Part shown: positions 25,221-36,940 of the stretch, piece by piece
Layout: every line of letters begins with the position of its first letter
Numbering within the stretch: the stretch's first letter is position 1
Assembly: GCA_003228915.1 (NCBI GenBank)
Contig: QIGL01000022.1
Coordinates: 1-36,976, forward strand
Direction: 5' to 3'
From: Acidiferrobacteraceae bacterium
GTDB lineage: Bacteria; Pseudomonadota; Gammaproteobacteria; Acidiferrobacterales; SZUA-150
Length of the DNA stretch: 36,976 nt
Notes under the pieces: generated by a model
Seen by the model: only the letters and a program-made list of their open reading frames with translations
The model's database searches: none
Told to the model about the DNA's origin: nothing
Program-made: the position numbers and the translations under genes

Positions 25221-25333
25221 TAGAAAAATCCTCCCTCAATAAGGAAATGATGAAATAGCCTGTGCCTCAAAATAACCAGGGAATAAACGATTGATGCCTG
25301 AATGATCAAAGAAATTGTGGTAGGTTGAAAGCC

Positions 25334-28300
25334 ATGAGCAAATCTATTTCACTGGCAAAAATAACCAAACCCGGACTGCCTGAAGTCTATAATCGGACGC
25401 GGCTATTTGATTTATTAGACAAGGCCAGTACCAGGCAATTAATCTGGGTTGCCGGTCCACCCGGTGCTGGCAAAACAACGCTGGTATGCAGCTATATCGA
25501 CCAAAGAAAAATTAACTGCTTGTGGTATCAGATTGATGAAACCGATTCCGACCTGGCAAGTTTTTTCCATTACCTGGGGCTGGCGGCTAAAAAAGCCGCG
25601 CCCAGGAAAAGAACACCGCTGCCACATTTAACGCCAGAATATCAGGCCGGAATTTCTGCGTTTACCCGGAGTTTTTTCCAGGAACTTTTTAGTCGCTTAA
25701 AGTCACCTTTTACCATTGTTTTTGACGATTATCAGCAGATTCCTGATCAGTCGGCTATTCACGAGGCAATCAAGGATGGTTTGATTGTATTACCAGAAGG
25801 CGGCACTGTAATCCTTTTAAGCCGAACCGAACCCCCGGCGACACTTGCCCGAACTCACATGAACCAGGCCATGTCGATTCTCGGGTGGAAAGATTTGTCC
25901 CTGACACCAGACGAATCCAGAGGTATCGCAAAAATCTGGGGTCTGCAAAAATCTGTTACCAGTATCCTGAGATTATTACATGGCAAGGCTGAAGGTTGGG
26001 CAGCCGGTCTGGTGCTTATGCTGGAACGAATCAGTAGCGGCCATGATACGCCACAAGCGATTAATGATTTAGGCACTGATACCCTGTTTGATTACTTTGC
26101 CGGTGAAATATTGCAAAAAGCTGAGCCAGAAATCAGGGACTTTTTGTTAAAGACTTCCCTATTGCCAAGTATGACCATAAACATGGCTGAGGCCCTGACT
26201 GGAAATACAAATACAAAAAAAGTTCTCGCCCAACTTAATCGTAATTATTACTTCACAGAGAAAAAAGTTAAAACAGAAGCTGTCTTTCAGTATCACCCCA
26301 TGTTTAGGGAATTTCTACAAACCAGTTTTGAGCAATTATTACCCAGCGAAGAAAAAAAACAATTACAAGGCAAGGCAGCATTTATCCTGGAAGAAAATGG
26401 ACATCTTGAGGCGGCCGTAACCCTGGTATTGACTATTAAAGACTGGAAAAGACTGGCGCTAATTATCAGCACTCATGCGCCCGAGTTAATGAAACAAGGT
26501 CGTTATGAAACATTACATGGCTGGCTAAAGGCATTGCCTGACGAAATGATCAATCTGCAACCCTGGTTACGTTTCTGGCTGGGCACCTGTCGAATGCCGT
26601 TTAGCGTTGCAGAAAGTCGTCAGCAATTTGAAGCAGCCTATAATTTATTTGAAAAAACAGATGATATCCAGGGACTCTGCCTTTGCTGGTCTTCAGTAAT
26701 AGAAACCTATCTCTATGAATGGGGGAATTTTAAACCGCTCGATGGCTGGATTGAAAAACTTGACGATCTCATCGCCCGCCATAAAGAACCGCCATCGGCA
26801 GAAATCGGTGCCCGAATTACAGCCAGTATGTTCAGTGCATTAATGTACCGACAACCGCAACACAAGGATTTCCCGGTCTGGGAACAGCGGGCACGGACAT
26901 TAATAGATAGCGAAATGGATCTCCATCACCGGATCATGATTGGCAACCAGTTGGTGCTTTTCTATAGCTGGATTGGAGATTTAGCCAAGGCCTCACTGGT
27001 AATTGAAATCCTGGGCCCTGCAGTGGCCAAAAAGAATGTCGCACCGCTTACTTTAGTGATATGGCACTCCATGGAGGCCATGTACTTATGGCTCACATTA
27101 AAAAATGATGCCTGCCTGGAATCTATCGACAAGGGCCTGGAGCTAGCACGCACTACTGGTATCCACATTTGGGACTTTATGTTGTACGCACAAGGCATGT
27201 ATGGTGCTGTTAATAATAACGACTTAAACAAGGCGGAAGATCTGCTTAAAGCTATGTCCGAAAGTATGCATGGGAACCGACGTCTCGATTCTGCCCATTA
27301 TCACTACCAGGCGGCATCCCTGGCCCTGTTAAAAGATGATTTACCGCTGTCACTGGAACATGCCCGTAATGCCAAAGAAAGGGCCGAAGAAGCAGGCAGT
27401 CCCTTTCCGCTAACCCTCGCCCTACTGGCGCTGGCACAAGCATTGTTCGAGCGTGAAGAAGATGATGAGGCATATAGTCAACTTGAACAGGCCCTGGAAA
27501 TTAACAAGGCTATCAAGAGTCAGTACATCGAATACCACAAACACCTGCTTGAAGGTTATTTCCACAGCCAGCGTGGTCGCGAAAAAGAGGCACTGCCCTG
27601 TATCAAAGCCGCTTTTGCACTGGGCAAACAACATGGCTTTATGACCATGACATGGTGGCGACCTGATTTAATGGCCGCACTTTGCGCCTTGGCAATCAGG
27701 CACAACATTGAGACTGAACATGCAGTCTCCCTGATTCGCAAACAAAATCTTGCGCCGATAGGCGTTGCGACAGAGATTGAAAACTGGCCCTGGCCGATCA
27801 AGATTTATACATTGGGAAGATTTAGTATCGCCCTGAATGATACGCCTTTGCGTTTTAATAGCCGCGCCCAAAGTAAACCACTTGAACTTTTAAGAATACT
27901 GGTTGCTTTTGGTGGCCGTGAAGTCAGCGAGCTCAGGTTCGTTGAAGCACTTTGGCCTGATGCCGATGGTGACTCTGCGCACAGGGCTTTTGATACCACC
28001 TTACATCGGCTGCGCAAGCTTATTGGCAATGACAAAGCCCTGACACTGCAGGACGGTCGCCTGACCCTGGATCCCAAACATTGCTGGGTGGATGTCTGGG
28101 TGTTTGAACGGTTACTTGGTAAACTGGAAAGCAATCTCCATAATGAACTGGACACTAATATAATCGAACTAACCGATAAAATTTTTAACCTATACCAGGG
28201 ATATTTTCTCGGTGAGTCGCCTGATATGATTTGGGCGATAGCATTACGGGATCGATTACACAGCAAGTTTACCCGCCAGATAAGTGCTGTCGGCACCCGC

Positions 28301-28528
28301 CTGGAATCGCAAAATCAATGGGACCGGGCGATGGATTATTACCAACGGGCCCTGGAAATTGACCCCCTCACAGAGTTCTTCTACCAGAGACTGATAGAAG
28401 GATATCAGCAACAGGGTCGATTTGCCGAAGCTACCCGCACCTACCAGCGCTGTAAAAATACCCTCAAAGCGTTATTAGACGTTAATCCCTCACCAGCCAC
28501 CCAGGCACTTTTTGATAAAATTAAATAA
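25334..28528 (+). CDS. BTAD-domain (SARP-like) transcriptional regulator with N-terminal ATPase
   Basis: 1064 residues; ATG 25334 preferred over the TTG 9 bp upstream. Residues 41-49 (GPPGAGKTT) are Walker A of a MalT-like STAND ATPase, and FTIVFDDYQQI is Walker B. A winged-helix-like segment and long TPR-type helical repeats fill about 280-810. The C-terminus has the SARP layout: an OmpR-like winged helix from about 820 (IKIYTLGRFSIALNDTPLRF, then LELLRILVAFGGREVSELRFVEALWPD), then the BTAD repeat (MDYYQRALEIDPLTEFFYQRLIEGY) to the end. The DNA-binding end is thus C-terminal, the reverse of actinobacterial SARPs. Two TGTAAG direct-repeat operators (28558, 31218) downstream are its probable targets. 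It should act as an ATP-dependent activator that integrates a ligand signal. Confidence 0.9.
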   Translation: MSKSISLAKITKPGLPEVYNRTRLFDLLDKASTRQLIWVAGPPGAGKTTLVCSYIDQRKINCLWYQIDETDSDLASFFHYLGLAAKKAAPRKRTPLPHLTPEYQAGISAFTRSFFQELFSRLKSPFTIVFDDYQQIPDQSAIHEAIKDGLIVLPEGGTVILLSRTEPPATLARTHMNQAMSILGWKDLSLTPDESRGIAKIWGLQKSVTSILRLLHGKAEGWAAGLVLMLERISSGHDTPQAINDLGTDTLFDYFAGEILQKAEPEIRDFLLKTSLLPSMTINMAEALTGNTNTKKVLAQLNRNYYFTEKKVKTEAVFQYHPMFREFLQTSFEQLLPSEEKKQLQGKAAFILEENGHLEAAVTLVLTIKDWKRLALIISTHAPELMKQGRYETLHGWLKALPDEMINLQPWLRFWLGTCRMPFSVAESRQQFEAAYNLFEKTDDIQGLCLCWSSVIETYLYEWGNFKPLDGWIEKLDDLIARHKEPPSAEIGARITASMFSALMYRQPQHKDFPVWEQRARTLIDSEMDLHHRIMIGNQLVLFYSWIGDLAKASLVIEILGPAVAKKNVAPLTLVIWHSMEAMYLWLTLKNDACLESIDKGLELARTTGIHIWDFMLYAQGMYGAVNNNDLNKAEDLLKAMSESMHGNRRLDSAHYHYQAASLALLKDDLPLSLEHARNAKERAEEAGSPFPLTLALLALAQALFEREEDDEAYSQLEQALEINKAIKSQYIEYHKHLLEGYFHSQRGREKEALPCIKAAFALGKQHGFMTMTWWRPDLMAALCALAIRHNIETEHAVSLIRKQNLAPIGVATEIENWPWPIKIYTLGRFSIALNDTPLRFNSRAQSKPLELLRILVAFGGREVSELRFVEALWPDADGDSAHRAFDTTLHRLRKLIGNDKALTLQDGRLTLDPKHCWVDVWVFERLLGKLESNLHNELDTNIIELTDKIFNLYQGYFLGESPDMIWAIALRDRLHSKFTRQISAVGTRLESQNQWDRAMDYYQRALEIDPLTEFFYQRLIEGYQQQGRFAEATRTYQRCKNTLKALLDVNPSPATQALFDKIK

Positions 28529-28557
28529 ATTCAATAAGTTATAATTATTTTTAGAGT

Positions 28558-28590
28558 TGTAAGCCCGCTGTAAGCTGGCCTCCGTAGAAT
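28558..28590 (+). promoter_or_regulatory. SARP-type promoter 1: TGTAAGC direct repeats and -10
   Basis: TGTAAGC occurs at 28558-28564 and again at 28569-28575, 4 bp apart (11-bp period). TAGAAT at 28585-28590, 9 bp after the second heptamer, fits a -10 box. Known SARPs bind heptamer repeats with a 4-bp spacer about 8 bp before the -10, replacing a -35. The site starts 30 bp after the regulator's stop and points at the structured RNA. Confidence 0.65.
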
Positions 28591-28596
28591 CCCCAA

Positions 28597-28820
28597 TGAG
28601 CATGCGTCACCGTCGGGAAGATCGACTGGTAACCGTGAATCCACCTGAAAATTGTTCAGGGAGGGACGGTGACGTTTGTTCGCCCATATTCGTAGGTTTG
28701 TCCCTATATATATTTAGGCGGACAGGCCAGCTTTTAGGTTCAACTAGTAAAAAATTTATGCGAGAGCATATCCAGCTCCCTCGTCTTTACCGGTAACTTA
28801 CATGGTTACCGGTTTTTTTT
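28597..28820 (+). ncRNA. Candidate structured small RNA (about 224 nt)
   Basis: The interval begins at the predicted start point and ends in a terminator. It folds into several strong helices. CGTCACCGTC (28605-28614) pairs perfectly with GACGGTGACG (28665-28674), enclosing CCTGAA/TTCAGG (28644-28649 / 28655-28660). GTTCGCC (28678-28684) pairs with GGCGGAC (28717-28723, one G-U), enclosing TAGG/CCTA. TATGC-GAGA-GCATA (28757-28770) has a GAGA loop. No convincing coding frame exists: the 66-codon one has no ribosome-binding site and starts at the likely transcript end. I do not recognise a known riboswitch or RNA family. The strand and start are inferred from the promoter. Confidence 0.6.
28789..28820 (+). 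terminator. Rho-independent terminator of the small RNA
   Basis: ACCGGTAAC (28789-28797) pairs with GTTACCGGT (28805-28813) as a perfect 9-bp stem, followed by a run of T to 28820. It ends 7 bp before the stop codon of the convergent cyclase gene, so it insulates the small RNA from that gene. Confidence 0.9.
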
Positions 28821-28826
28821 GTCTCG

Positions 28827-31064
28827 TTACTTTGACTCGTGGGTGAAAACCCCGTCCCAACCACTGGCAGGTGGTTTAATTCGATAACTGGTAATTCGAC
28901 TGACATAAAGCCGGTATAATTTTCTGGCGGGATTTTGATTCGATAACGACAAAAATTGCATTTCTGCCCCATCCCAATCCTGGCGTCGATATCTTTTTAA
29001 TGCCTCACCATACAGGCCAAGCTCCTGCTGCTGTGTGTCTGTCAAATCCTGCTCATGGCAGACAGGCTCATAAATCCGCACCGGTTTTTTCTTGCCCTTA
29101 ACCCGGACTATATCCAGCTCCCGAACCGCCCAGCCATTTGTTGCTGCTACCGTTGCTTCGCTAATAATTATATCCACGCCATATTGTTTTGTTAATCCTT
29201 CAAGGCGTGAACCAAGATTAACCTCGTCACCCATTACAGTATAAGCCATGCGAAATTCGGAACCCATATTGCCCACGTTCATTTCGCCGGTATTAAGGCC
29301 GACACCAATTTTAATTTCTGGCCAGCCATTGGCGATGTATTGCGCACGCAACCGTGATAGTTCATCAATCATTTCCATGGCCGCTGTTAACGCGTGTTCG
29401 GCATGGTCATTGTCCTGAACAGGCGCGCCCCAGAATGCCATGATGGCATCACCCATGTACTTGTCAATTGTTCCCCTGTTGCGATGAATGATTTCTGTCA
29501 TGGGCGTAAGAAAGGCATTCATTAGTTCAGATAATTGTTTGGGATCCATGTTTTCGGAAATTGCTGTAAACCCACGGACATCAGAAAACATAACCGTAAG
29601 ATTTCGCTTTTCTCCTGCCAGTGAGTAAGCCTCGGGGTTTTCACTCATTTCCTCGACCAGCTCTGGCGGCACATATTGACCAAACAAATGGCCAAGATAA
29701 CGTTTACCCCTGGCTTCAACAAAAAATCCATGGGACATATTCACGACAAATAAGGTCACAACCAACATCAGAGATGAGGCCAGTGGCAGTATCATAACCA
29801 GGTCAAACCATCCGTACAGGTTAATGCCTATAGACACCGCCAATGCAAGCAATGAAACTATGGTGGCAAATAAAGGTGTCAAAAATGGCAGGGCCAGTGC
29901 CAGTCCCAGGCCAAGTACCAGCACCATGGTTATTTCAATGCCAGCGACATAAGCCGGCCGGGCACGAAAAGACTCATCAAGAATACCGGCTAAAATATTG
30001 GCATGAATCTCCACGCCTGGATAAACGTTGCTTACCGGGGTTGCCCGCAAATCAAACAAACCCTCAGCTGTGGTCCCCACCAGGACAATTGCATCTTTCA
30101 ATAAATCAGGATTTGCCACTGTGCCACGAATCACATCAGTCGCGGATATATAATAAAAACCACCTTGCGCATTTCGATAAGGCACCCAGACGGCCAGATC
30201 TTCATCTACGGGTATTTCATTTTGGCCAACTCGCAAGGTTTCCAGGGCAGGATATTGATCACCCCGTTTTATTTTGTCGGCAAACTCGAGTTTCACATCA
30301 GATTGCAAGTAAGTACGGGCCATGGCCAAAGATAAAGTATCGTAATAACCATCTTTGAACTTAATCAACAGCGGTACGCGGCGAATAATACCATCTTCAT
30401 TAACTACTGGCGGAATGCTGAAGTGGCCAGCGCCAAGCGCGGCGTTCTGTAACAACGGAATATTGGCACCAAAGCCGAATGCCTCAATGGCCGTGACAGT
30501 CTTGCCTCTTGTTTCAGCGGAAGTAAACAAGGGTTCTGGTAACACGCCAATTTGTTGTCTGCGGGCCGGATCATCAATCATAAAATAACCCAGCAATACG
30601 GGTTTCCCCCTAATCGCCTCAGCCAATGCGTTATCGCTGCCAAGTATCTCTCTCGCGTTGGCCAGGTATTTTTTTACTGATTGATTGCCCTGTGCGTCCG
30701 CAAGTTCTTCCAGCCGAGCCAGGGTATGATCTTTATCTTCCTCAACAAAGGTAATATCAAAACCCAGGACATTAATCTTATACAAATTAAATAACTGGTT
30801 GGTCAGGGTGGCCAGCTTTTGTCGTGACCATGGCCAGCGTCCCTCGGCCGATAAACTCGCTTCATCTATATCGACAATGACAATTCTTTTATCGAGATTT
30901 TTAGGCAGACTAAAATTTAACCTGATGTCGTAAACCAGGTTCTCCATGCGCTGGATAAAATCAAATTCCAGTAAACGGGTTGCGTGTAACAAGAATATAA
31001 AAGTAACCGCCACCCCAAGCCCAATGGGGATTATTTTTTTTCTAAATGTTTCCGGATTAATCAC
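28827..31064 (-). CDS. CHASE2-domain class III adenylate cyclase
   Basis: 745 residues from GTG 31064. A first membrane helix is at about 12-29. The periplasmic CHASE2 sensor follows (about 40-370, with LNFSLPKNLDKRIVIVDIDEASL, the RWPWSR motif, VLGFDITF and VGTTAEGLFDLRATPVS typical of CHASE2). Three close helices lie at about 375-445. The cyclase domain has the metal Asp in MFSDVRGFT (about 489), K and D in DKYMGDAIMAFWG (about 533-540), and NLGSR for the transition state. At the adenine-specifying position the second Asp is Thr (YTVMGDEVN), a Lys-Thr pair as in class IIIb cyclases, often bicarbonate-responsive. A TPR-like tail ends the protein. It is divergent from the exported-protein operon at 31308. 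Confidence 0.92.
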   Translation of the reverse strand: MINPETFRKKIIPIGLGVAVTFIFLLHATRLLEFDFIQRMENLVYDIRLNFSLPKNLDKRIVIVDIDEASLSAEGRWPWSRQKLATLTNQLFNLYKINVLGFDITFVEEDKDHTLARLEELADAQGNQSVKKYLANAREILGSDNALAEAIRGKPVLLGYFMIDDPARRQQIGVLPEPLFTSAETRGKTVTAIEAFGFGANIPLLQNAALGAGHFSIPPVVNEDGIIRRVPLLIKFKDGYYDTLSLAMARTYLQSDVKLEFADKIKRGDQYPALETLRVGQNEIPVDEDLAVWVPYRNAQGGFYYISATDVIRGTVANPDLLKDAIVLVGTTAEGLFDLRATPVSNVYPGVEIHANILAGILDESFRARPAYVAGIEITMVLVLGLGLALALPFLTPLFATIVSLLALAVSIGINLYGWFDLVMILPLASSLMLVVTLFVVNMSHGFFVEARGKRYLGHLFGQYVPPELVEEMSENPEAYSLAGEKRNLTVMFSDVRGFTAISENMDPKQLSELMNAFLTPMTEIIHRNRGTIDKYMGDAIMAFWGAPVQDNDHAEHALTAAMEMIDELSRLRAQYIANGWPEIKIGVGLNTGEMNVGNMGSEFRMAYTVMGDEVNLGSRLEGLTKQYGVDIIISEATVAATNGWAVRELDIVRVKGKKKPVRIYEPVCHEQDLTDTQQQELGLYGEALKRYRRQDWDGAEMQFLSLSNQNPARKLYRLYVSRITSYRIKPPASGWDGVFTHESK

Positions 31065-31217
31065 AGTTTGGCAAACCAGTCATAAATATCGCTCGCATAC
31101 TCAAATACATTATTAGAATGGCGTTTAAACAGTCTAATTCCGATCAATATTCATTTTATAGCTGTAAAAACAATAAGTTGCAATATTTTGATATTGATCA
31201 CTGGTTTGAGATCGCCG

Positions 31218-31251
31218 TGTAAGTGCCCTGTAAGGGTCGCTATCGTATAGT
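31218..31251 (+). promoter_or_regulatory. SARP-type promoter 2: TGTAAG direct repeats and -10
   Basis: TGTAAGT at 31218-31224 and TGTAAGG at 31229-31235 are spaced 4 bp apart (11-bp period), the same architecture and half-site as at 28558. TATAGT at 31246-31251 follows by 10 bp as a -10 candidate. It lies 57 bp before the start of the exported-protein operon, in the 243-bp gap shared with the divergent cyclase. The TGTAAG doublet occurs nowhere else in the window. Confidence 0.7.
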
Positions 31252-31307
31252 ATGGTGCTAAGTAGGGCGACCAACAAAGTAAAATTTTTCTGCGGAGTAA
31301 ACAAACC

Positions 31308-34211
31308 ATGCGATCCCTGTCTCTCCCGATCCATTATTCCGGCTGGTGCCGTTATTTCTTTTGCCTGTTTATTATTGCTGGCAGCCTGGCCCCCGGGCAA
31401 GTCCTGGCGCAGCCTGAAATACCGACACCTGGAACATCGTTAAAAGGTAAGCCCTTATCATCATCCTTACCCTTTTATTTTGAAGCCAACCAGGGCCAGG
31501 TACCGGGTAATGTAAAATTTATCACACGCACAGGGGGTTATTATCTCTACCTGGGTCCATCTGCAGCAGTCCTGGGTTTACGCACAATACGAAAATCTAA
31601 AAATAGCAGCACCGAATTTGAAGCAAGCAGCCTTTCTGAATATCACTTTATTCAAACACAATTTGTTGGCGCCAATCCTGATGTAAAAATTACTGGCCTG
31701 GATAAACAACCCGGTAAAACTAATTATTTAATCGGCAATAATAAAAAAGAATGGTTTACTGGCATCCCCCATTTCGCAAAAGTAAAATACGAAAACCTGT
31801 ACCCCGGCATTGATCTTGTTTATTACATGGGTGAGTCAGGCCTGGAATATGATTTCATCGTTCACCCCGGTGCAGATCCAGATTTAATTAAATTAAAATT
31901 TAATAATGTTAAACATTCAAAAATAGATAAATATGATAATTTATTACTTGAGATAGCCGATCTTGAATTAAAGCAACATAAACCCGTCAGTTATCAACTT
32001 GCAGGGTCTGACAAAGAAAAAATCGCCAGCGCCTATAAAATATTAAAAAATAATACCATCGGTTTTAAGCTTGCCGCATATAATAAATCAAAAACATTGA
32101 TCATAGACCCGGTTATAGACTACTCAAGTTATTTCGGTGGCACAGGCAGTGATAGAATTCAGGATATTGCAACCGATGATACCGGCCCACCAGCATTTAC
32201 GGAACGATTTTACCTGACCGGTAGTACTGACATTCCAGATCTGGCAAACAATGCGCCAAGTGCAACAATAGGCACAGGCGGAGCTACTGACATTTTTGTT
32301 GCCCGGCTCATCTCACCACCTGACACAAGCTCACCACCGACCATCGACTACATTACCTATATTGGCGGCACGGGTAATGAAATCGGTAATGGCATCAAGG
32401 TATTTGGTAATATTGCTTACGTCGTGGGTTCAACTGGATCAGACCAAACAACATTCCCGGTGAGCGCCTCAGCAACACAAGCCACCTATGGCGGTGGTAT
32501 TAGCGATGGTTTTATCCTTGGTGTTAATTCTACAGGGGCTTCACTAAGCATATCCACATATTTTGGTTCTACAGATTTTGATACCATCCAGGATTTAGCA
32601 CTAGATGTTCTTGGCAATATTCAATTCGCCTTGAATTATAATGTTGGTGTAAATCAGTTCTCACTGCCTGCCGTATCAAACAATACCAATACTGCCATGG
32701 ATTTTGGTGGTTGTTCTTTTTCAGTTAGTTCCGGAAAAGTAAGTACGCGAGCAATTTTTAATGATGGTGGCGCCACGTACCTGGCTGGCACTGCTTTTAA
32801 TACCGGACTATCTTGCGGAACAATCCTTTCCGGTACTACATTACCAATTCAAACAATAGCCGCAGTGCCAATTGGTGCTGTTTTTCAGGGCGGACTCACT
32901 GATGCTTTTGTGGCGCGCATTATTTATCCTACTTCCGTAATTGGTGGTGCTTTTTTTAACACCTATACTAACCTGTCTTACCTTGGCGGTAGTCAAACAG
33001 ATGAAGGCCTGGGTATTACTGCATCTGGAAACGCCCTTTTCATCACGGGTTATACCACTTCTACAAACGCCGCTACGCCACCAATATTCCCCACCACAGC
33101 CACAGCCTATAACCCAACGCCATTGGGCGGACAAGATGCATACCTGGCACGTATTGATATTGGTGCGGGTGTACCTACTATGACATTGGTAGAATCCAGC
33201 TTCATTGGCGGCAATGGTACGGATAAAGGTAATGACATCGCCCTGGTCACCTCCAACCCGCCATTAGGCGTGACCATCACCGGCACGTCTGACTCCGGGG
33301 ATTTCCCCATTAGCAATTTTGCGCCTGGTGGACGACCCGCGGGCAGTAATGCCTATATCATGCGTTTTGGTGATAGGCCAATACCTACTGATTTAGTTTA
33401 TTCAGGCATGGTTGGTGGCAGTCTTAATGAAAATTCCGAAGCTTTGGCTATCGGCCAGTTGGGCCAAACATTTATTGCCGGCAGGACAGCTTCGACGAAC
33501 TTTACTGCTATTGATGCCCTGCAGACCAGTAATGCCGGTGGCGCAACGGACGGCTTTTTTGTCAAGCTCGCCAACGGTGCCGATTTGGCAGTAAGCATTA
33601 GCGGCCCGACACCGCTAACAATCAATCAGCCTGTTCGTTATCGCGTGACTGCCAGCAATCTTGGCCCTGATCAGGTTATGCTCACCAATGTCGTTTATAC
33701 TGTTCCCGCCAATCACGCTCCATCAATCTCCTCATCGAATCCGGCCGGTGCTTGTGCTCTGGTCTCACTGACCATCACCTGTAATTTTGGCCCCACCAAT
33801 CCGGGTCAAGTTGTATATGTTGATGTTGATATGACGGTCGCCACTATTGGTGACTATACACATACAGCCAGCGTCAAGGCTTTAGATACTTTTCCCGTTT
33901 CGGTTGACCCCGTGCCTAGCAACGATATCAGCGTCCTGGCGGCACAGGTACTGAATCCTTCTTTTTGTGATAACAGAAAACTGTCAGCCGCAAGCAATAA
34001 TTTAATAAAGCCAAATGCCAATCAGGCCCAGTGTGTAGTGAAAGTATCCGCTGCCAACGGTGGCGGTGGGTCCATAGATTTCTGGATGATATCTATATTG
34101 CTCGCTTTTTCCCTGTTGCTAAACTATCAGCATTTGCAGTCGAAACGGCAACGCGTTTTTACTAAAAAAGTGTGCGCCATAATTCGCAGTAAAGTTAAGT
34201 CCCGGAAATAA
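31308..34211 (+). CDS. Large exported SBBP/DUF11 protein with GlyGly-CTERM sorting signal
   Basis: 967 residues. A signal peptide ends near AQPEI (about residue 35). The segment PFYFEANQGQVPGNVKFI is the start of the DUF7948/SBBP N-terminal domain. Repeats with the pattern YFGGTGSDRIQDIATD..., YIGGTGNEIGNGI and SYLGGSQTDEGLGI recur from about 275 to 755, forming a beta-propeller. A DUF11 immunoglobulin-like domain covers about 759-880 (ADLAVSISGPTPLTINQPV). The C-terminus has NGGGGSIDFWMISILLAFSLLLN, a glycine-rich turn then a membrane helix and basic tail: a GlyGly-CTERM signal cleaved by rhombosortase. The cut surface protein may then be released or transferred. It begins the operon under the TGTAAG promoter. 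Confidence 0.85.
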   Translation: MRSLSLPIHYSGWCRYFFCLFIIAGSLAPGQVLAQPEIPTPGTSLKGKPLSSSLPFYFEANQGQVPGNVKFITRTGGYYLYLGPSAAVLGLRTIRKSKNSSTEFEASSLSEYHFIQTQFVGANPDVKITGLDKQPGKTNYLIGNNKKEWFTGIPHFAKVKYENLYPGIDLVYYMGESGLEYDFIVHPGADPDLIKLKFNNVKHSKIDKYDNLLLEIADLELKQHKPVSYQLAGSDKEKIASAYKILKNNTIGFKLAAYNKSKTLIIDPVIDYSSYFGGTGSDRIQDIATDDTGPPAFTERFYLTGSTDIPDLANNAPSATIGTGGATDIFVARLISPPDTSSPPTIDYITYIGGTGNEIGNGIKVFGNIAYVVGSTGSDQTTFPVSASATQATYGGGISDGFILGVNSTGASLSISTYFGSTDFDTIQDLALDVLGNIQFALNYNVGVNQFSLPAVSNNTNTAMDFGGCSFSVSSGKVSTRAIFNDGGATYLAGTAFNTGLSCGTILSGTTLPIQTIAAVPIGAVFQGGLTDAFVARIIYPTSVIGGAFFNTYTNLSYLGGSQTDEGLGITASGNALFITGYTTSTNAATPPIFPTTATAYNPTPLGGQDAYLARIDIGAGVPTMTLVESSFIGGNGTDKGNDIALVTSNPPLGVTITGTSDSGDFPISNFAPGGRPAGSNAYIMRFGDRPIPTDLVYSGMVGGSLNENSEALAIGQLGQTFIAGRTASTNFTAIDALQTSNAGGATDGFFVKLANGADLAVSISGPTPLTINQPVRYRVTASNLGPDQVMLTNVVYTVPANHAPSISSSNPAGACALVSLTITCNFGPTNPGQVVYVDVDMTVATIGDYTHTASVKALDTFPVSVDPVPSNDISVLAAQVLNPSFCDNRKLSAASNNLIKPNANQAQCVVKVSAANGGGGSIDFWMISILLAFSLLLNYQHLQSKRQRVFTKKVCAIIRSKVKSRK

Positions 34212-34214
34212 GCC

Positions 34215-35537
34215 ATGAGTAAAATTAAAAAAATAATAATACTTTTTTTATTATGGGGCATCAGCGCCACGGTCATGGCAGATGCAAAAAACGATCAAAT
34301 CCAAAAACTACTTGATAACAAACAATATCAAAAAGCCTACACCACGGCCGAAAAATTAATGGATGACAGGATTGGCCAGGTTGAATTCGATTACCTTTAT
34401 GGGCAGGCCGCAACAGGTATTGGCAGAATTGGTGAGGCAATTTTTGCCATGCAAAGAGTAATAACTTCCAAACCAGATCATTACCAGGCGCGACTTAAAC
34501 TGGCACGGCTTTATCTGGCACAAAAAGATACCGAGGCGGCATACAAAGAAGTTGCTTACCTGTTGCAATTGAAGCCACCGGTTAAAATACATGCCCAGGC
34601 AATAGTTATCCTCAAAAAAGCAAGATCGCAACAAACCCGATATTTTACCAATTCTTTGACTGGTTATGTTTCTCTTGATTTTGGCTACGACAGCAATGTC
34701 AACAGCACAATTGCGTTAGACGGCGGTTATCTTGTAGCCGGTAACACACTCTTGGTATTTGACGAAAGTGCAGAAAGTAAATCTGATAATTATTTCAAAC
34801 TGGCGGGTGGCATCACCAGTGCCTACGGACTGGGAAATGATTTCTTTGTATTTGGTGGCCTCGATGCCTATGAGAAAAAGAATCAAAAAGAAGATGATTT
34901 TGACGCAACATTAATGAGCCTGTTTGGTGGGCCAGGTTTTGATCTACAACAGCACCGGTTTACCCTGCCCATTTATTATCAAAAATACCTGGTGGGCCAC
35001 AACGCTTACCTGGCTCGTACCGCCGTATCTGCTGACTGGCAATACCTTTACAGTAGTGATGCTGAGGTTGGCGCCTCACTTTCATATGGTGCCAACAAAT
35101 TCGATTACCTTCAGGAGCGGGACGTCGATAATTTAGCGCTAATTATTGGCTGGAAAAAACATATGAAAGATGAGCTCAATCCACGGCTAGGCGTCAATCT
35201 TCAATTTGGCACTGATACCGCAAAAGATAAACTCTACGACCAGTATGGCCGTAACTACACACAAATAGATCTTGAAGGCAGCCTGACAATCTGGCGAGAC
35301 CATGCCCCCTATATCAATGCAACTTATCGTACCAGCACCTACAATGCTGAAGATCCGCTCTACAATGAAACCAGGCAAGACACCTTTGCGTACTTTGAGA
35401 TAGGCTGGCGTTGGTACTTTATCGATAGTACTTTTGCTCGCCTCGGTTATTCATATACCAAGAATTCTTCCAATCTTGAATTGTACAAATTTGACCGCAA
35501 CCAGTATTTCCTGGGTGTGCAATATAATTACTTTTAG
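34215..35537 (+). CDS. TPR plus outer-membrane beta-barrel protein, Slam-like
   Basis: 440 residues. A signal peptide ends near VMA-DAK (about 22). TPR helices cover about 25-130 (KNDQIQKLLDNKQYQKAYTTAEKL, then IGEAIFAMQRVITSKPDHYQAR). The rest is amphipathic beta strands beginning GYVSLDFGYDSNVNST, a phrase characteristic of the DUF560/Slam barrel, and ending in NQYFLGVQYNYF with the terminal Phe of outer-membrane proteins. Slam proteins move lipoproteins or exported cargo across the outer membrane; I infer a similar job for the SBBP protein encoded 3 bp upstream. Second gene of the operon; FecR gene follows after 18 bp. Confidence 0.8.
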   Translation: MSKIKKIIILFLLWGISATVMADAKNDQIQKLLDNKQYQKAYTTAEKLMDDRIGQVEFDYLYGQAATGIGRIGEAIFAMQRVITSKPDHYQARLKLARLYLAQKDTEAAYKEVAYLLQLKPPVKIHAQAIVILKKARSQQTRYFTNSLTGYVSLDFGYDSNVNSTIALDGGYLVAGNTLLVFDESAESKSDNYFKLAGGITSAYGLGNDFFVFGGLDAYEKKNQKEDDFDATLMSLFGGPGFDLQQHRFTLPIYYQKYLVGHNAYLARTAVSADWQYLYSSDAEVGASLSYGANKFDYLQERDVDNLALIIGWKKHMKDELNPRLGVNLQFGTDTAKDKLYDQYGRNYTQIDLEGSLTIWRDHAPYINATYRTSTYNAEDPLYNETRQDTFAYFEIGWRWYFIDSTFARLGYSYTKNSSNLELYKFDRNQYFLGVQYNYF

Positions 35538-35555
35538 CCGATTGGTGATGCCATC

Positions 35556-36350
35556 ATGAAACAGTTTCAAAAGTTATCTACGCCCTGTTTATATATTCCC
35601 TATTTATCTTTTAATAGACAAACAGCTATTAATTTATTTTTAGCTTTATCGCTATTAATAATAACGCCCAACACCTTTGCAGCTGTCGCCGGCAAAGCCT
35701 TGACGGTCACGGGCGAAGTATCAGCGGTACGTACTGGCGGTGAAGTTCGGGTGCTGCGCAGTGGTTCACCGGTTTATGGTGGCGACAATATAATCACGGC
35801 AATTAATGCGAGCACACAATTACGATTACAAGATGGTTCTTTGATTAACCTGTTTTCAGAAAGTGATTTCCGGATTGAAAGTTACAAACTCAATGCCAAC
35901 AAGAGCAAACTGCTGGAGTCTTTCTTTAGCCTGGTCAAGGGTGGTTTCAGATCCCTGACCGGTGCCCTGGTGCAACGCAACAAAAAAGCCTATCGACTCA
36001 AAACGCCAGTTGCCACCATTGGCATCCGTGGCACAGATTTTTCTATTCGTATATGCAGCAATGATTGTCCGCGTGGTTATCTAAATGGTGCCCTGGTGAC
36101 AGTTTTTGAGGGAGAATTACAAGCCGACACGGCCAGTAAAACCTATCACATCAAAACAGGTGAAAGTGTTTTTATACCTGGCGGCAAAGAACCAATGAAA
36201 TACCTGCCTGCTGTTCCGGACATCCTCAGCCCTGAACCTACTCTGCTGGGCGCAATCAAGCGCCCGAAACGACCGGGGCGAAAACAAGTGGACCCAAGGC
36301 TAAGGACATTAAGCTTTCAATCGGTAGAGCGTTTGATTTGTATCAAGTAA
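35556..36350 (+). CDS. Exported FecR-domain protein
   Basis: 264 residues. A signal peptide is present, with the hydrophobic stretch about 25-42 ending in TFAAVAG; the long polar N-terminus before it is unusual. The FecR domain (about 50-180) includes TVTGEVSAVRTGGEVRVL, GSPVYGGDNIITA, ALRL-type strands and the signature YRLKTPVATIGIRGTDF. FecR domains outside sigma systems are found in surface and secreted proteins next to TPR/CHASE2 cyclases. Two Cys (ICSNDC) may be disulfide-bonded. The C-terminus is Pro/Arg/Lys rich. Its last 34 bp overlap the 3' end of the convergent rhombosortase gene, which could give antisense interference between the two transcripts. Confidence 0.87.
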   Translation: MKQFQKLSTPCLYIPYLSFNRQTAINLFLALSLLIITPNTFAAVAGKALTVTGEVSAVRTGGEVRVLRSGSPVYGGDNIITAINASTQLRLQDGSLINLFSESDFRIESYKLNANKSKLLESFFSLVKGGFRSLTGALVQRNKKAYRLKTPVATIGIRGTDFSIRICSNDCPRGYLNGALVTVFEGELQADTASKTYHIKTGESVFIPGGKEPMKYLPAVPDILSPEPTLLGAIKRPKRPGRKQVDPRLRTLSFQSVERLICIK

Positions 36351-36940
36351 CGACGAACCAAAATAATAATAACAAGAATAGTTCCGCTGGTTACGCCATA
36401 TAAATGCGCAACGGTTATTACTCTGTAGTTTTTTATTACCGCACTCGTGGGCAAGGGGCCGATTATTTGCTCATAACCAATCTTGATTAGCAATAAAACA
36501 ATAAGAAGAATGCTGTAATATTTTCTGTTTGAATTCGTTTTATCAAAAACCGCCATTATTGCTGCAAATATCAACAAACCGTGCAATAAACCAGACAGGC
36601 CCACATACCAGGCAAGACCTGGACTAAACCACAACAGGCCAATACTCACCCCAAAGGCAATACCGAGAACAGCCGCAATTCCCTGGCCGCCAATCAAATA
36701 TCGATAAAAAACCAGGTACGTCAATATCAGGCCGGCCAGGTTGAGCAACAGGTGTTGCCAACCGAGATGTACAAGATGACCGGTAAATAATCGCCATAGT
36801 TGACCTTCCAGGATGGCCTGCCGGTCATAACGCAGCCAGAGGTTTACCGGGTCGCCAACCAGCTCGATTAAAATCATCAGGGCGATGAACCCGATAATTA
36901 ACCACCAGAAGAGATTACTTATTTTCAACTTTGATTTCAT
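36317..36940 (-). CDS. rrtA: Rhombosortase (rhomboid-family protease for GlyGly-CTERM proteins)
   Basis: 207 residues with six or so membrane helices. YDRQAILEGQLWRLFTGHLVHLGWQHLLLNLAGL is the conserved start. GLSGLLHGLL holds the catalytic Ser in the GxSG motif (YVGLSGLLHG). The catalytic His is in VAHLYGVTSG. The layout matches rhombosortase, which cleaves GlyGly-CTERM tails. The only candidate substrate here is the SBBP protein 31308-34211, encoded 2 kb away. The gene is convergent with the FecR gene and overlaps it by 34 bp. Full-length including start; the region beyond 36940 (36 bp) holds no further feature. Confidence 0.88.
   Translation of the reverse strand: MKSKLKISNLFWWLIIGFIALMILIELVGDPVNLWLRYDRQAILEGQLWRLFTGHLVHLGWQHLLLNLAGLILTYLVFYRYLIGGQGIAAVLGIAFGVSIGLLWFSPGLAWYVGLSGLLHGLLIFAAIMAVFDKTNSNRKYYSILLIVLLLIKIGYEQIIGPLPTSAVIKNYRVITVAHLYGVTSGTILVIIILVRRYLIQIKRSTD

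Follow-up and report, generated by a model that had tools for sequence, protein, structure and literature searches.

Locus organization

The window analysed here, 36,976 nucleotides of contig QIGL01000022.1 of an Acidiferrobacteraceae bacterium (assembly GCA_003228915.1), carries on its forward strand a regulator gene (25325–28528) whose open reading frame and profile matches indicate a MalT-like STAND ATPase/TPR N-terminus and a winged helix plus BTAD domain at the C-terminus. A direct repeat of the form TGTAAG-N5-TGTAAG, TGTAAGCCCGCTGTAAG (28558–28574, forward strand), is positioned 32 bp 3′ of this gene and is identical in a sister species of the same genus. It is followed by the −10 element TAGAAT (28585–28590, forward), starting 10 bp past the second repeat, and by a predicted structured small RNA of ~224 nt (28597–28820, forward), which begins at a start inferred from the −10 element and has a terminator at its end. 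The only other exact box in the window, TGTAAGTGCCCTGTAAG (31218–31234, forward), lies upstream of an operon for an exported SBBP-type protein, and its −10 element TATAGT (31246–31251, forward) starts 11 bp past the second repeat. A first, sequence-only reading of the window had proposed a TGTAAG promoter design common to the RNA and the operon, and the two exact boxes, each with its −10 element, bear this out. On the basis of the sequence comparisons described below, we consider it likely that a SARP-type activator controls an envelope and matrix regulon through TGTAAG-N5-TGTAAG, and that the window holds its gene together with two of the target promoters.

Architecture of the regulator

Residues 18–416 of the regulator matched the MalT model NF003420 with 214.8 bits, short of the 537 required by the MalT equivalog cut-off, and its N-terminal 400 residues matched the MalT-type structure 8bob (E 2.5e-30). 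The C-terminus consists of a winged helix at about residues 823–925 and a BTAD domain at 922–1066 (70.7 bits), and the AfsR profile model matches over residues 855–1066. An AlphaFold model of the winged helix plus BTAD part, of moderate confidence with a mean predicted local distance difference test score (pLDDT) of 67.9 and weak in its first 33 residues, found its best Foldseek matches over the whole length in AfsR (8k60/8hvr, transcription initiation complexes) and EmbR. The regulator thus presents the OmpR-type winged helix followed by BTAD that defines SARPs, in the place where MalT and LAL proteins carry a LuxR-type helix-turn-helix. Its SARP part is situated at residues ~823–1066 instead of at the N-terminus, and the host belongs to the Gammaproteobacteria and not to the actinobacteria. 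Three short BTAD paralogues encoded on contigs C1, C52 and C2 of the source genome share much of the recognition helix.

A genome-wide set of box promoters

Pattern searches revealed 13 exact boxes in the source genome and 12 in the sister species, compared with none for the reversed control pattern. The sequence TANNNT starts exactly 10 or 11 bp past the second repeat in 20 of the 25 boxes of both species; in the source genome alone this applies to 10 of 13 (P about 1e-12, at a chance of ~0.04 per site). Thirteen more sites of the source genome deviate by one mismatch, and the five among them with a −10 element at 10 or 11 bp all precede genes for exported proteins or lipoproteins. About 9–10 of the box promoters are retained in the sister species. 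The box geometry, direct repeats with an 11-bp period next to the −10 element, corresponds to that of SARP operators, whose direct repeats are 11 bp apart with the 3′ repeat ~8 bp from the −10 element, and to which SARPs bind as side-by-side dimers in contact with sigma region 4 (PMC10936776). Another TGTAAG tandem repeat, with the surround TGTAAGCACTATGTAAGCAGTTGG and sometimes triple, occurs in genomes of genus g6 devoid of the regulator (L055–L060, L080); it looks like a different, probably unrelated element and was set aside as support.

The genes downstream of the boxes are mostly exported or matrix-related, in agreement with the cell-surface theme of the sequence-only reading. They include Gly-linker lipoproteins, among them a P-domain subtilase and proteins with an NHL or a DUF5122 propeller, as well as a lipoprotein gene that precedes SoxY, a long lipoprotein-like protein, exported proteins, a PilZ protein and a small protein starting with MDSYIVHFDRH. 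An XrtA/PEP-CTERM polysaccharide-export operon is likewise preceded by a box; TIGR03027 and TIGR03007 matched there above their cut-offs, and the kinase (TIGR03018) and the ATPase (TIGR03015) just under theirs. The SBBP operon and two terminator-ended RNAs, the one of the window and one on contig C75, complete the list. In other genera, PilZ and NHL-type lipoprotein genes are again found behind boxes. The true unit is probably a genome-wide regulon of 13 exact and about five one-mismatch promoters, not a local module. The literature searched contained nothing relevant on an operator of this kind or on BTAD together with PEP-CTERM, and the control circuit apparently has not been described so far.

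Association of box and regulator across relatives

Boxes are present in 16 of 28 genomes with a regulator-like gene versus 10 of 68 without one among 96 relatives (P 7e-5), and in 23 of 50 versus 29 of 319 genomes in a class-wide sample (P 2e-9), both being counts over related and hence not independent genomes. The regulator-bearing genomes have 83 listed exact boxes, of which 21 are located within 500 bp of a regulator gene, where 0.04 would be expected; these linked boxes belong to 20 regulator genes from 16 genomes and 10 families. Within 104 regulator flanks the direct repeat occurs 20 times at a gap of 5 and otherwise only twice, at a gap of 16, while the inverted form stays at background level. 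As in the window, boxes are frequently placed 32–160 bp past the end of the regulator gene and point away from it; others stand in front. Roughly half the linked boxes are of the former type, with a place and orientation from which they cannot drive the regulator gene. The same layout recurs in a Nitrospirae relative, where a one-mismatch box with −10 element is found 47 bp behind a regulator gene whose frame looks shifted near its end in that assembly. One further genome (G108; L216, L217) contains the regulator gene in duplicate; behind each copy come a box and an exported protein of ~380 residues, the two proteins being similar and ending in C-x2-C-H-E-Q.

A variant box accompanies one of the short paralogues. 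In both species of the genus (G000, the source genome, and G001, the sister species), TGTAAC-N5-TGTAAC is placed behind the paralogue gene (G000 C52:16109–16125, L106; G001 C23:30791–30807, L246), and two further copies in the source genome precede a large exported protein and a lipoprotein. Such a matched variant would be predicted were every regulator to mark a box of its own. Within 5 kb of the C1 and C2 paralogues, no box with two or fewer mismatches was detected.

RNAs and small proteins behind the regulator genes

The window RNA folds better than its shuffled versions (z = −4.0, 0 of 200 shuffles), ends in a strong canonical terminator and carries CUCCC close to its 3′ end. It matched no Rfam family at gathering thresholds; a relaxed threshold yielded only a chance DnaX match on the opposite strand. 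A coding function was rejected for its 66-aa frame, which is lost in the sister species. DNA searches found no homologue outside the genus, related sequence being restricted to the sister species. A second box-driven RNA of ~103 nt on contig C75 (G000 C75:8125, L012/L103; G001 C38, L092) contains CUCCUCC and is near-identical between the two species although the flanks diverge.

In seven genomes (G000, G001, G003, G025, G239, G345 and G099), non-coding sequence extends from the box to a terminator, and G057 has a similar stretch that reads back toward the regulator gene. Sequence similarity among these stretches is confined to single genera; the trio G239, G345 and G099 keeps the terminator and an outer helix. 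A protein of ~60–85 residues takes the place of the RNA in G017, G056, G136, G026, G010, G019, G002 and G203 as well as behind the source-genome paralogue. This “RIYRR” protein, which starts with M-x-S/A-Y-x-V-R-I-Y-R-R, is encoded directly behind BTAD regulator genes of several families (L106, L246, L113 at 7.7 kb, L044 at 3.6 kb, L047, L048, L120, L121, L174 and L197), and the box is a variant (CGTAAG, TGTCAC) at some of these loci. The three members examined had no Pfam match above the gathering cut-off. It is quite possible, though we would not call it probable, that these arrangements represent a widespread undescribed cassette, in which a STAND-SARP activator is directly followed by an 11-bp YGTAAG tandem box. 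The box would drive a RIYRR protein or a cognate structured RNA, and this product would either act back on the activator or adjust the surface programme; position and box would be kept and the RNA sequence replaced between families.

The SBBP operon and its neighbours

Between the RNA and the second box, and convergent to the former, lies the gene of a CHASE2-domain class III adenylate/guanylate cyclase (28827–31064, reverse strand; CHASE2 195 bits, Guanylate_cyc 83.6 bits). Neither this gene nor that of the rhombosortase has an exact box in the window. For a second CHASE2 cyclase of the source genome (G000 C1, near 28.8 kb, L014), a one-mismatch TGTAAG box was observed directly behind the gene, followed by an exported-protein gene.

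The operon begins with an exported DUF7948/DUF11 protein of SBBP type (31308–34211, forward; DUF7948 222 bits), for which the SBBP-repeat model itself reported no match at E 0.001. Its GlyGly-CTERM-like tail (34059–34208, forward) is built of GGGGS, a hydrophobic stretch and basic residues, GGGGS-IDFWMISILLAFSLLL-basic, and scores 10.3 bits with TIGR03501, below the cut-off of 15.5; it is still the only match for this model in the genome and is kept, with RRRR, in the sister species. Downstream follow a TPR plus outer-membrane barrel protein of the SlipAM (Slam) Pfam family (34215–35537, forward; PF04575, 29.6 bits, above the Pfam gathering threshold of 22) and an exported FecR-domain protein (35556–36350, forward; FecR 41.7 bits), the regular partner of the barrel gene. 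The rhombosortase, the GlyGly-CTERM protease (36317–36940, reverse), is well above the curated cut-off (TIGR03902, 141.3 bits against 84). The only GlyGly-tail match of the genome neighbours its only rhombosortase match. The SBBP-type protein beside the SlipAM barrel does not look like a lipoprotein; many lipoproteins are found elsewhere in the regulon.

All seven elements named in the sequence-only reading, namely regulator, RNA, cyclase, SBBP-type protein, barrel, FecR protein and rhombosortase, were recovered with their coordinates and strands, including the gaps of 3 bp and 18 bp and a 34-bp overlap of the convergent FecR and rhombosortase genes. Their proposed conservation as a seven-part module did not hold, as the linkage was encountered in one sister species only, up to the contig end, and nowhere outside the genus. 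That species, whose regulator is 94% identical, retains the Gly tail, both boxes and the succession of regulator, RNA, cyclase, SBBP and barrel. In the co-occurrence survey suggested at the time as a check, the order persisted in the sister species, and outside the genus the genes were scattered or missing among the 96 relatives. SBBP-like proteins occur in nine of these genomes and rhombosortases in 20; both are on separate contigs in G002, G077 and G078, and G042, G071, G075 and G089 have an SBBP-like protein and no rhombosortase match. Beyond the genus, these two genes and the regulator are spread over separate contigs or absent. Barrel and FecR form the only widely kept gene pair, the FecR gene following the barrel gene at 8 of 8 other homologous loci (L146–L152, L154).

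Alternative explanations

Several observations weigh against control of the boxes by the BTAD regulator, in addition to the relatedness of the genomes counted. Some genomes carry boxes without a regulator, 68 of 88 regulator genes lack an exact box within 500 bp, at least one of the 13 sites (on contig C30) has no sensible target, and the AlphaFold confidence is low for the winged-helix part (mean pLDDT 67.9). Moreover, OmpR-family proteins are established to bind 11-bp direct repeats at −35, and the boxes might accordingly be sites of an OmpR/PhoB-family response regulator with the BTAD gene as a mere neighbour or target, as would fit those families in which the box stands in front of the BTAD gene. 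We regard this as unlikely: the boxes behind the regulator gene, about half of those linked, are unable to drive it, box presence follows the BTAD gene across families, a BTAD paralogue has a matched variant box, and the BTAD protein itself carries the OmpR-type winged helix within a SARP fold. From their related recognition helices, the three short BTAD paralogues could use the same sites. That the paralogues on C1, C52 or C2, singly or jointly, act at the TGTAAG sites while the window protein targets something else nevertheless appears improbable, since the C52 paralogue is marked by its own TGTAAC boxes, full-length regulators of other families have TGTAAG boxes alongside, and the 5 kb around the C1 and C2 paralogues contain no box, even with two mismatches.

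A joint surface-display and signalling unit of the seven linked genes, as first envisaged, would be in keeping with the gene order in the sister species and with the neighbourhood of the sole GlyGly-tail and rhombosortase matches. The absence of linkage outside the genus, the lack of an exact box for cyclase and rhombosortase and the genome-wide distribution of the box regulon leave little room for this interpretation. Finally, the window RNA might be attributed to the Gac/Rsm system as a CsrA sponge with GGA motifs, given the same half-site word and the presence of RNA targets. The GacA box is, however, the inverted repeat TGTAAG-N6-CTTACA, whereas the sites described here are direct repeats with the inverted form at background; most of the RNAs show no GGA enrichment and there is no Rfam match, so that this explanation can be considered extremely improbable.

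Comparison with known systems and proposed mechanism

Among the closest counterparts of the regulator is AfsR of Streptomyces (8hvr, 8k60; PMC10936776), which resembles it in the winged helix followed by BTAD, the predicted fold, the 11-bp direct repeats beside the −10 element, the extra nucleotide-binding and TPR domains and the role as global regulator. In contrast to AfsR, its domain order is reversed with the SARP part C-terminal, its STAND part is MalT-like, its hosts are Gammaproteobacteria and Nitrospirota, and its predicted targets serve the surface and matrix or encode small RNAs, instead of being antibiotic genes. The SARP-LAL protein PimR shares a SARP domain fused to a LAL/MalT-type ATPase and repeats one helical turn apart, but has the SARP domain at the N-terminus, an operator upstream of −35 and a single target gene (PMC5930380). 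MalT/LAL (STAND) activators have the N-terminal 400 residues in common with the regulator, in which winged helix and BTAD replace the LuxR-type helix-turn-helix. Salmonella HilA consists of winged helix and BTAD without the MalT-like half. EmbR (2fez) has the same winged helix plus BTAD together with an FHA domain, again without the MalT-like half. With respect to the rhombosortase/GlyGly-CTERM system, a rhombosortase above cut-off and a substrate-like tail lie side by side here; the pairing is many-to-one in the literature (PMC3237569, PMC6219818), whereas apparently one substrate is encoded here, in the same gene cluster.

In a scenario consistent with fold and promoter geometry, the MalT-like STAND/TPR half would be switched on by some signal, upon which the winged-helix/BTAD half may bind as a side-by-side dimer to the two TGTAAG half-sites, which lie one 11-bp period apart shortly before the −10 element, and recruit RNA polymerase as AfsR does. 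The activator would thereby turn on ~18 promoters, among them those of the SBBP/barrel/FecR and XrtA polysaccharide-export operons, of PilZ, of Gly-linker lipoproteins and the subtilase, and of two or more small RNAs. Through the box behind its gene, each activator might have an RNA or small protein made at once, probably as feedback or to repress competing genes through Hfq; base-pairing RNAs are plausible because Hfq is encoded. The neighbouring rhombosortase probably trims the one GlyGly-tailed protein of the genome for surface display.

BTAD/SARP regulators have so far been understood mainly in actinomycetes. For a large hybrid STAND-SARP family in Gammaproteobacteria and Nitrospirota, the proposed circuit would supply an operator, a rule for promoters and a list of targets, and would tie these regulators to small RNAs as well as to surface lipoproteins and the XrtA/PEP-CTERM matrix. 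It also points to a small-protein family without a name (RIYRR) and to several unlisted RNAs. As the box stands beside related activator genes in at least 10 bacterial families, the circuit is directly testable.

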